Notes: generated by a model from the letters alone, not told the origin. A stretch of 36,778 nt of DNA from Sphingorhabdus sp. (GCF_029865925.1 NZ_JARXAI010000087.1:1-36778); one strand, 5' to 3'. Positions 5,493 to 14,675 are shown, counted from the stretch's first letter. Numbers and translations are program-made.

Positions 5493-5496
<4 letters not shown>

Positions 5497-6401
5497 AGAC
5501 AGTTGCGCTGACGGGCGCGACGGGCTTTGTCGGGCGGATAACGCTTGACCGACTGCTTGCCGCTGGTTGGCATGTGCGCGCGTTGACGCGGCGCGACCAG
5601 CCCAAGAAAGCCGGGGTAACTTGGGTACATGGGCGCCTGGATGATGCCGCCAGCCTCATCGAATTATGCAAAGGGGCCGATGCCGTCTTACATGTCGCAG
5701 GCGTCGTAAACGCGCCCGATGCGGCAGGTTTTGAAAGCGGTAATGTGACGGGTACGAAACTTATGCTCGCTGCAGCAGCATCGGCAAGCATCGGTCGCTT
5801 CGTCCATGTTTCCTCACTCGCCGCCCGCCACCCTGCCTTGTCGATATACGGTGCCAGTAAAGCGAAAGCAGAATATTTGGTGCGCTGCTCCAAACTCGAC
5901 TGGACCGTCATCCGTCCGCCGGGAGTCTACGGCCCCGGTGACACCGAAATGTTCGACATGTTTCGTATTGCTGCTAAAGGCTGGGCCTTGTTGCCGCCAC
6001 GCGGACGCGTCTCCGTCATCCATGTCGATGATTTGGCGCGTTTGCTTGTGACATTGCTGTCGGCTTCTGATGTATCGAAGCGGGTTTTTGAGGCTGATGA
6101 CTCTATGGTGGGCGGGTGGAGCCATGAAGCTTTTGCCAAGGCCATTGGCGCGGCAGTCGGACGCAAAATCACAACAGTGCACGCGCCGCGCTTTCTTCTA
6201 AATATTGCGGGATGGGCCGATCGGGCTATTCGGGGACCAAAGGCAAAGTTGACGCCGGATCGCGCCAATTATCTTGCGCATCCCGACTGGACCATTGACC
6301 CGGACGCCGCGCCAGCGCCCGAACTTTGGAAGCCGGAAATGGCCACACCAAAGGGGCTTCAGGACACAGTAACATGGTATCGCAAGCAAGGGTGGATGTA
6401 G
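5493..6401 (+). CDS. NAD-dependent epimerase/dehydratase; candidate ceramide reductase (CerR-like)
   Basis: GTG start at 5493 overlapping the proB stop; [34 protein letters not shown] Rossmann motif; ISIYGASKAKAE and active-site-like region; context of ACP and SPT. Confidence 0.75.
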
Positions 6402-6491
6402 CGCCTTGGCCTTGCCCTTTTGCCGCCTTATTCCCTTGCCATAGCGCCACGATATAGCGCAATAGTCGCAACCTATTTCGAGGATTTACGA

Positions 6492-6737
6492 ATGACTGAC
6501 CGAAGCGAAATGTTTGATCGCCTGAAGGGCTTGATTGCGCCATTTAACAAAAAAGGCGTTGATGTCAGTGAGACAACAACCTTTGCTGGCGACCTTGAAT
6601 GGGACAGCCTGACCGTCATGGACTTTGTCGCGGAAGTCGAAGACAGCTTCGACATCATCATCAGCATGAATTTGCAGGCAGAGATCGAAAATGTCGGCCA
6701 GTTGGTCGATGCCGTGACCAAGCTAACCGCTGCCTAA
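6492..6737 (+). CDS. acyl carrier protein, sphingolipid-dedicated by context
   Basis: 82 aa, phosphopantetheine motif EWDSLTVMDFV; directly upstream of SPT. Confidence 0.85.
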   Translation: MTDRSEMFDRLKGLIAPFNKKGVDVSETTTFAGDLEWDSLTVMDFVAEVEDSFDIIISMNLQAEIENVGQLVDAVTKLTAA

Positions 6738-6756
6738 TTTTTTACGAGAGACGGTA

Positions 6757-12396: not shown

Positions 12397-12399
12397 CGG

Positions 12400-13488
12400 A
12401 TGCATTTCTTCCCTTCGCGCAACATCACCATGTACATGGCCAAGTTGTTTATCATCCGCAGTTTCGCCGTGCTTACGATGCTTGTCCTTATACTGATGAC
12501 GCTGGATTTGCTGGGCGAAAGCGGCAAGATATTGGCCGTTCCCGGAAATGACCAAGGCGATGTTCTGCAGTATATTTCGATGCGCGCGCCACAAATCATT
12601 GCCCGATTTTTGCCATTTTCTGCCTTGCTCGGAACGTTGATTGCATTTGCCGGGCTAAGCCAGAACAGCGAAGTCGTTGCCATGAAAGCAGCCGGCCTAT
12701 CGGCGCATCAGATATTAGCGCCGATGTTTGTCGCAAGCCTTGGCGTTGCGCTTATTTCTTTTGTCTTCAACGATGCTGTAGTCGCGCCAAACACGGCCCG
12801 CCTGAAGGTTTGGCAAGCGGCAGAATATGGCGCGGTTGCGCCCAATAGTGACGCGCGAAATAATGTGTGGGTGCGCGAGGGCAATGATCTTATCAAAGCG
12901 GGCAATGTGGTTGGATCAGGCGATGACACTGTGCTTGAAAATGTTCGTATTTATCTGCGCGCAAATGGCGGATTACGGCAAGTCGTGACTGCGACGCAGG
13001 CGCGCTATACTGGCGACGCATGGCAACTGGAAAACGCAAACTCGTTTGATGTTGCCACGACTACAGAAACCAAGCCGGGCAATTTGATAATCGGCAGGGG
13101 CATTACGCCTGACCGATTTAACTATGTCAAAGTGGATGGCGACAGCTTGGCCTTCCTGCCGCTGATGCGCGCGATTGACGATTTAAAAGCCGCTGGTCGC
13201 CATACAGACAATCTGGAAGGCATTTTGTGGCATAAGCTTTCGGGACCGTTGTCGACGCTGTTGATGCCTTTGCTTGGCGCGGTTGCGGCCTTTGGCCTTG
13301 CCCGTTCGGGCGCACTTTTCCTGAGGGCCGTTATCGGTATGGCATTGGGCTTTACCTACTTTGTCGCTGATAATTTCGCCCTCGCAATGGGGAATCTGGG
13401 CGCGTACCCGCCCTGGATTGCGGCATGGGGTCCGTTCTTGTTATTCTTCTTGATAGGCGAAACCGTTTTGGTTCGTACCGAAGAATAA
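12400..13488 (+). CDS. LptF/LptG (YjgP/YjgQ) family lipid-export permease, LptG-like
   Basis: IIRSFAVLTMLVLILMTLDLLGESGKIL...RAPQIIARFLPFSALLGTLIAFAGLSQNSEVVAMKAAGLSAHQILAPM; 3-nt gap from the LptF-like gene. Confidence 0.87.
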   Translation: MHFFPSRNITMYMAKLFIIRSFAVLTMLVLILMTLDLLGESGKILAVPGNDQGDVLQYISMRAPQIIARFLPFSALLGTLIAFAGLSQNSEVVAMKAAGLSAHQILAPMFVASLGVALISFVFNDAVVAPNTARLKVWQAAEYGAVAPNSDARNNVWVREGNDLIKAGNVVGSGDDTVLENVRIYLRANGGLRQVVTATQARYTGDAWQLENANSFDVATTTETKPGNLIIGRGITPDRFNYVKVDGDSLAFLPLMRAIDDLKAAGRHTDNLEGILWHKLSGPLSTLLMPLLGAVAAFGLARSGALFLRAVIGMALGFTYFVADNFALAMGNLGAYPPWIAAWGPFLLFFLIGETVLVRTEE

Positions 13489-13523
13489 GGACCGCGCGCT
13501 GCATAGAGTTTCAGGGATACAGA

Positions 13524-14675
13524 ATGACACAGATTAATATTCGCCCAGTTGTGACGATGGCCGATAAAAAGACATTTGTTGATCTGCCTTTTCGCTTGTA
13601 TGCGGGCGATCCCAATTGGGTACCGCCGCTAAAAAGCGATGTGATGGCAACTATCACACCGGGAAAAAACCCTTGGTTTGGCCATGGTGAGGCGCAGCTT
13701 TACCTTGCCGAGCGCGCTGGCCGTATCGTTGGCCGCATCTCCGCACATATGGACCATCTCGCGCTGAAACAGCCGCCAGAACAAGGCATGGGGCCGGGCG
13801 TTGGCAATTGGGGCTTTTTTGAAGCGGAAGATTCTGACGTTGCGGGGCCGTTAATCGCTGCGGCAGAGGCGTGGCTGCACGACAAGAAAATGGTCCGTTC
13901 ACTGGGGCCATTGAGCCTGTCGATCTGGGAGGAACCAGGGCTGCTGATTGACGGCCATGATCACCCACCCACTATACTCATGGGCTATCACAACCCGGCT
14001 TATGGCGCGTGGATTGAGGCGGCCGGTTATGCGGGTGTCAAAGACCTCTATACTTACCAAATCCCGATCGACGTGCCCTTTCCACCTTTGGTGCAACGCA
14101 TCGTCGCGTCGGGCGAACGGAACGAACGCATTGTCATTCGCAAGGTGAACAAGAAAAATTTCGATGCCGAAGCCGCGATCATTCTGTCTATCTTGAACGA
14201 CGCATGGAGCGGCAATTGGGGTTTTGTGCCGATCACAGATGCCGAGGTCGCCCATACTGGAAAGCAACTGAAACCCATCGTTTTCAACGATCTGATACGC
14301 ATTGCGGAAGTCGATGGGGAACCTGTGGCCTTCATGATGACATGGCCCGATATTAACGAGAAGACGGGCACCTTCGGCGGGTCGTTGTTCCCGTTTAACT
14401 GGGCGAAACTGCTTTGGTGGCTCCGCGCGCCGAAGGTCCGGACAATGCGTGTGCCGTTAATGGGCGTGGTCAAGAAGCTACAATCGACCAGAATGGCGAG
14501 CCAGCTGGCCTTCATGCTGGTATCGCTGATCCGCGATTCATCGACGGCCGACTTTGGCGCAACGCGCGGCGAATTTGGTTGGGTGCTCGACGATAATGGT
14601 CCGATGAATTCCGTCGGCGAAGCCATTAATGGCAAGATTAATAAGGTATATCGTATTTACGAAAAGCAATTGTGA
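13524..14675 (+). CDS. GNAT-type N-acyltransferase; candidate bacterial ceramide synthase (bCerS)
   Basis: ATG at 13524 (MTQINIRPVVTMADKKTFVDLPFRLYAGDPNWVPPLKSDV...); GNAT-like architecture and ceramide-locus context. Confidence 0.75.
   Translation: MTQINIRPVVTMADKKTFVDLPFRLYAGDPNWVPPLKSDVMATITPGKNPWFGHGEAQLYLAERAGRIVGRISAHMDHLALKQPPEQGMGPGVGNWGFFEAEDSDVAGPLIAAAEAWLHDKKMVRSLGPLSLSIWEEPGLLIDGHDHPPTILMGYHNPAYGAWIEAAGYAGVKDLYTYQIPIDVPFPPLVQRIVASGERNERIVIRKVNKKNFDAEAAIILSILNDAWSGNWGFVPITDAEVAHTGKQLKPIVFNDLIRIAEVDGEPVAFMMTWPDINEKTGTFGGSLFPFNWAKLLWWLRAPKVRTMRVPLMGVVKKLQSTRMASQLAFMLVSLIRDSSTADFGATRGEFGWVLDDNGPMNSVGEAINGKINKVYRIYEKQL

Follow-up and report, generated by a model that had tools for sequence, protein, structure and literature searches.

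The locus studied here places a gene pair for LptF and LptG, the inner-membrane pump pair usually used for lipopolysaccharide (LPS), among ceramide synthesis genes in a Sphingorhabdus genome in which LpxC was not found, which raises the question of what this pump carries. No transporter is known for bacterial sphingolipids (PMC11087976), and their route to the outer membrane has been stated to be unknown (PMC11324152, PMC11087976). Second copies of LptC/F/G have been linked to sphingolipid transport as a proposal, transport itself being untested there (PMC11324152).

A ceramide locus and its gene content

The window, i.e. the whole stretch of 36,778 nucleotides that was analysed, corresponds to contig C87 in an assembly of 2.1 Mb with 93.6% completeness, and the closest named relatives of the locus belong to Sphingorhabdus; a scan of genome contigs gave sphingomonad loci and a single unplaced alphaproteobacterial record. 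The locus is flanked by proB on one side and an SRAP-like gene on the other, and its order is cerR, acpR, spt and a DUF1275 gene (plus strand), genes for a nucleotidyltransferase, a DAGK-type kinase and a DUF2141 protein (minus strand), and lptF, lptG and a GNAT-fold gene (plus strand). A sequence-only reading had listed these ten genes at 5493-14675, and profile matches bore this out; all are open reading frames, and positions and kinships agree.

The cerR-like gene for an NDUFA9/epimerase-type ceramide reductase (5493-6401, plus strand; Pfam Epimerase, 2.3e-22, 80 bits) probably starts with the GTG at 5493, overlapping the end of proB, while a longer frame opens at 5406. It is followed by acpR, predicted to encode a dedicated acyl carrier protein (ACP; 6420-6737, plus strand; PF00550, PP-binding, 4.7e-8, 33.6 bits), the likely start of which is an internal ATG at 6492, and by spt for serine palmitoyltransferase (SPT; 6757-7956, plus strand), which matches the equivalog NF047603 with 795 bits (cut-off 670). 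The ceramide synthase gene bcerS (13524-14675, plus strand) probably starts at 13524, with a longer frame opening at 13425. Its protein has no Pfam match of its own. An AlphaFold model based on an alignment of 22 orthologue sequences (pLDDT 93.4) matches tandem GNAT proteins in a fold search (5kf1, E 1.4e-13), and Pfam GNAT (PF00583) matches 17 of the 22 orthologues. The locus hence has the features by which the alphaproteobacterial ceramide cluster is recognised: SPT, with an ACP and an epimerase-type reductase directly before it, and a GNAT-fold ceramide synthase. The steps predicted to lead to ceramide are assigned from established protein families.

An acyl-ACP synthetase gene, aasR, is absent from the window; a relative with 50% identity is present on another contig (G000:C29:49127-50830), and membership of aasR in the cluster is optional and scattered in sphingomonads. 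Since aasR and the gene for LptD are on other contigs (C29 and C75, respectively), a locally complete pathway was ruled out. The claim of one module leading from serine to the outer membrane is not supported for the same reason, and also because the annotation of the locus shows no glycosyltransferase gene and because the DUF1275 gene is lineage-specific (see below).

Two further genes were noticed elsewhere in the window: one for an MlaA lipoprotein (24178-25296), another outer-membrane lipid transport component, and one for a Beta-carotene 15,15'-dioxygenase (Brp/Blh-like; 35940-36731), which suggests retinal production. In three relatives, fatty-acid hydroxylase- or desaturase-like genes lie between lptG and the ceramide synthase gene (L084 16405-17229, L093 1577-2350 and L085 17511-18638). 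Their products could make a hydroxylated amide-linked acyl chain; the window has no such gene between lptG and bcerS.

Head-group genes and conservation of the neighbourhood

The nucleotidyltransferase (8617-9564, minus strand) has no Pfam match of its own, PF09139 (Tam41) included. Its AlphaFold model (alignment of 24 sequences, pLDDT 92.9) has the Tam41 CDP-diacylglycerol (CDP-DAG) synthase 7ecd as best fold match (E 9.6e-9), and 6ig4 also matches (5.3e-8); one orthologue matches PF09139 at 5.5e-5, and a search of the profile against PDB sequences gave a single match at 0.04. The likeness to Tam41/Mmp37 lies in the nucleotidyltransferase fold (TM 0.59 normalised by 7ecd) and in active-site-like YGS...DF residues, with Y49-G50-S51 and D64-F65 being invariant in the alignment, whereas identity is only ~13% and the expected substrate would be ceramide-1-phosphate rather than phosphatidic acid. 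The modelled Tam41 fold suggests CDP-ceramide as product, and makes the protein a candidate CTP:ceramide-1-phosphate cytidylyltransferase. It is a probable counterpart of Caulobacter CC_1161 (CpgC), which is CDP-DAG-synthase-like and required for ceramide phosphoglycerate (PMC11324152).

The adjoining gene encodes a DAGK-family lipid kinase (9574-10545, minus strand; PF00781, DAGK_cat, 6e-15) with a GGDGT motif, which is present in nearly all kinase orthologues of such loci. Like the ceramide kinase CpgB (PMC10331486), it is a DAGK-family protein with a GGDG motif in a sphingolipid locus, and judged by these sequence features it is the probable ceramide kinase, i.e. the CpgB (CC_1160) counterpart. 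Kinase and nucleotidyltransferase genes adjoin both in the stretches fetched around SPT and in loci found via the nucleotidyltransferase, and this side-by-side pair is likened to the CpgB/CpgC pathway at the level of family and fold only. The DUF2141 protein (10555-11031, minus strand; PF09912, 3.7e-20) has a hydrophobic stretch at its N-terminus that looks like a signal peptide, and its gene has a conserved place between the kinase gene and lptF, also outside sphingomonads (G099/G226). The sequence-only reading had glycosphingolipids in view; the head-group genes point instead to a phosphosphingolipid branch, similar to that of ceramide phosphoglycerate.

In the 77 stretches fetched around SPT the acp-spt pair is nearly universal, with the ACP gene immediately 5' of spt, and cerR adjoins it in most of those stretches that contain cerR. 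The order nucleotidyltransferase-kinase-(DUF2141)-lptF-lptG-(GNAT) is found repeatedly among sphingomonads as well as in unrelated families (e.g. f39 and f37), and the gene order is repeated in named Sphingorhabdus, Sphingobium, Sphingopyxis and Parasphingorhabdus loci. Among 57 sphingomonads, 20 have lptF within the stretch that was fetched, as do 13 of the 19 genomes from outside the family; in two additional genomes (G234 and G118) it lies at about 14 kb. Among 14 sphingomonads with lptFG apart from SPT, the pair is still beside the ceramide synthase gene or the nucleotidyltransferase-kinase pair; in 12 of the 14, lptG still has bcerS as its neighbour. The 80 loci found via the nucleotidyltransferase include SPT in 77, the kinase in 63, DUF2141 and lptF in 59 each, and DUF1275 in 13. 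That the neighbours act on the same lipid was thus supported for LptF/G, the kinase, the nucleotidyltransferase and DUF2141, which accompany the ceramide genes from family to family; a non-conserved neighbourhood, which would have spoken against a common function, was not what we found. For the pump pair the Lpt cargo is an inferred one. The DUF1275 membrane protein (7967-8620, plus strand; PF06912) did not follow this pattern: the 13 close loci that carry it (out of 80) are all from close relatives of the window, and it was present in 0 of the 77 wider SPT loci. It was therefore dropped as a member of the module and is probably a passenger of the lineage of the window. Its slot is occupied by a hybrid histidine kinase gene in other sphingomonads, e.g. 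between SPT and the nucleotidyltransferase in L085 (10624-12687) and at like places in L089, L117 and L129.

Loci of this kind are known, the core here resembling the Caulobacter crescentus CC_1168-CC_1152 region, which comprises spt, acpR, cerR, aasR, cerS, cpgA-D and LptC2/F2/G2, and of which orthologues have been noted in S. wittichii and Z. mobilis (PMC11324152). Both have ceramide synthesis genes, a kinase, a CDP-DAG-synthase-like protein, LptF/LptG and a ceramide synthase in one region, whereas aasR, LptC2 and genes of the CpgA and CpgD types were not recognised in the locus of the window. The comparative LptF/G evidence given below is new.

With kinase and nucleotidyltransferase genes as the usual neighbours of lptF, and with LptC2/F2/G2 proposed to serve phosphosphingolipids in Caulobacter (PMC11324152), the Lpt pair might export only a phosphosphingolipid of the ceramide phosphoglycerate type, bulk glycosphingolipid taking another route. 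We regard this as rather unlikely, given that many sphingomonads keep lptF-lptG-GNAT without a kinase or nucleotidyltransferase gene nearby, and that one relative (G057) keeps the permease pair with no nucleotidyltransferase found and a degenerate kinase motif. In that relative (L084 12626-13420) the motif reads GDDAT instead of GGDGT, and nothing near the kinase gene matched a nucleotidyltransferase; its phosphosphingolipid branch is perhaps in decay.

Two types of LptF/LptG

The two permeases are encoded by lptF (11158-12396, plus strand) and lptG (12400-13488, plus strand), which match PF03739 (LptF_LptG) with 204 and 243 bits, respectively, both above cut-off. LptG passes TIGR04408 (304 bits, cut-off 240), and LptF is just below the cut-off of TIGR04407 (226.4 bits versus 230). 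They are the only two LptF/G matches in their genome, in which neither LpxC nor LpxK was detected at an assembly completeness of 93.6%. LpxC is absent in all 61 genomes of the family, as expected if sphingolipid is used in place of LPS, and the presence of LpxK follows that of LpxC in every genome tested for both. LptF/G were found in 60 of the 61, usually as two matches. Outside the family, four LptF/G were present in seven of eight genomes with both SPT and LpxC, two in 10 of 11 with SPT and without LpxC, and two in 11 of 11 with LpxC and without SPT. Caulobacter has a second LptF/LptG, whereas the pair in the window is the only one found in its genome, because the LPS pair and the LPS genes are gone.

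There are exceptions to this phyletic pattern. One SPT-containing genome (G139) has SPT and yet only an LPS-type pair, with no kinase or nucleotidyltransferase gene in its SPT stretch. Another (G126; L070), a single contig listed as 100% complete, has SPT and gave no matches for LpxC, LpxK, LptF/G or LptD, possibly through loss of the whole Lpt path. Sphingolipid synthesis does thus not strictly require the sphingolipid-type permease. A sphingomonad with SPT and LptD (G018; L109, L325) gave no LptF/G match, either because the genes were lost or because the assembly has a gap. Long open frames had hinted at LptF and LptG being fused into a single chain, which an ORF check of seven loci did not bear out.

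The alphaproteobacterial LptF/G form two clades by computed phylogeny. The LPS type comprises 19 genomes and the sphingolipid type 35 loci with the window among them; support in the concatenated LptF+G tree is 100/100 and 100/99, respectively. The first holds the LPS-type copy of every LPS maker and the second all remaining copies, LPS-less genomes having only a sphingolipid-type pair; separate LptF and LptG trees give the same split (support for the sphingolipid clade 98 in the LptF tree), and forcing the sphingomonads to group with the LPS type cost 30.6 log units (p-AU 0.033). The long branches of some sphingolipid-type copies (G118, G086/G217) would fit a split caused by lineage divergence or horizontal transfer rather than by a change of cargo. 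This is very improbable, as seven genomes carry one pair of each type, of which one groups with the LPS-only genomes and the other with the LPS-less genomes.

Gene linkage follows the same division. Ceramide-pathway genes are near the sphingolipid-type loci examined, and two sphingolipid-type pairs are away from SPT (G155 and G222), yet have GNAT, kinase and nucleotidyltransferase genes alongside. In 21 control stretches around LPS-type lptF/G, the genes for SPT, GNAT, nucleotidyltransferase and kinase were found in none, which ruled out chance linkage of LptFG with ceramide genes; there was one weak epimerase-like match (45 bits). P. aeruginosa LptB2FG also binds cardiolipin (PMC12738788), and the pair may be thought to serve an unrelated envelope lipid or polymer, the ceramide neighbourhood being nothing but inherited gene order. 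We consider this improbable, since the linkage recurs across families with altered order and orientation (G153, G183, G184 and G155) and persists where SPT has moved off, and since none of the SPT-less genomes tested has a pair of the sphingolipid type.

A sphingolipid cargo is further supported by positions in LptG. In an LPS-bound Shigella structure, three LptG residues are in contact with the ligand: D37 with the glucosamine disaccharide, K40 with the 4'-phosphate and K41 with the inner core (PMC6744409). LPS-type pairs have R at the K40 position in 16 of 19, R or K at the K41 position in 19 of 19 and D or E at the D37 position in 18 of 19. Sphingolipid-type copies have a basic residue in 3% at the K40 and 31% at the K41 position, and their D37 position is most often G or S; LptG of the window has G at the positions of both D37 and K40 of E. 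coli LptG. Many other alignment columns also differ between the two clades, and R33 of LptF has mostly been retained in the two types alike (29 of 35 sphingolipid-type copies). Since K40E/K41E in LptG is tolerated by E. coli (PMC5548808), these differences support, and do not prove, a change of cargo.

An emptied site, a single LptD and the proposed route

Most stretches from LPS makers show the order pepA, lptF, lptG, lptD, surA, with the LPS-type pair between pepA and lptD. In the genome of the window (G000:C75) and in 15 other LPS-less genomes, pepA is directly followed by lptD, in most cases with surA after it. LptD itself is present exactly once in 34 of 35 genomes, including those with two LptFG pairs. 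With the LPS-type pair missing between pepA and lptD and LptD being single, the inner-membrane pair has been exchanged and the outer-membrane port kept. The pair in the window has, compared with the E. coli LptB2FG-C-A-DE exporter, the same LptF/LptG fold and order, and LptD of its genome is in the canonical lptD-surA-pdxA-ksgA context. It differs from an LPS exporter in that no LPS genes were found in its genome, in belonging to a separate clade, in its position away from pepA and lptD, and in the D37/K40/K41 positions, which are mostly lost in the sphingolipid type. LptC was not detected with the Pfam model in this genome (93.6% complete). In a relative (G055), an LptB-like ABC ATPase gene lies next to rpoN.

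On this basis, an ACP-bound fatty acid, loaded by the aasR product, and serine would be joined by SPT to give 3-ketosphinganine; the GNAT enzyme would add the second chain, and CerR would reduce its product, in the periplasm should it work as it does in Caulobacter (PMC11087976). The kinase would then give ceramide-1-phosphate, which the Tam41-fold enzyme would probably turn into CDP-ceramide for head-group transfer. Sphingolipid-type LptFG, with the shared Lpt ATPase (LptB) and bridge, would extract a ceramide-based lipid from the inner membrane and pass it to the retained LptD, the LPS-type pair having presumably disappeared from between pepA and lptD, its ancestral site, in the LPS-less lineage of the window. 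Of these steps, we infer the Lpt cargo, the formation of CDP-ceramide and the use of the same bridge. Taken as a whole, from ceramide synthesis over a phosphosphingolipid branch to extraction by sphingolipid-type LptFG towards LptD, we consider this account likely. The broader reading, that Lpt cargo is set by an exchangeable LptFG, with two pairs feeding one LptD and LPS-less lineages repeatedly dropping the LPS pair, is held with somewhat less confidence, though we lean towards it.

A search of mainly open-access, published papers gave no description of the LptFG exchange pattern, the empty site or the shared LptD. For the CpgC step, so far undefined, the Tam41-fold protein suggests a chemistry that can be tested, i.e. 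CDP-ceramide. The exchange of LptFG with LptD kept constitutes a natural swap for studying Lpt substrate specificity, with three candidate positions in LptG. Finally, the pattern names a sphingolipid permease, predicts that it feeds an ordinary LptD and would explain why LptD is kept in bacteria without LPS; if true, LptD becomes a sphingolipid port in LPS-less lineages.
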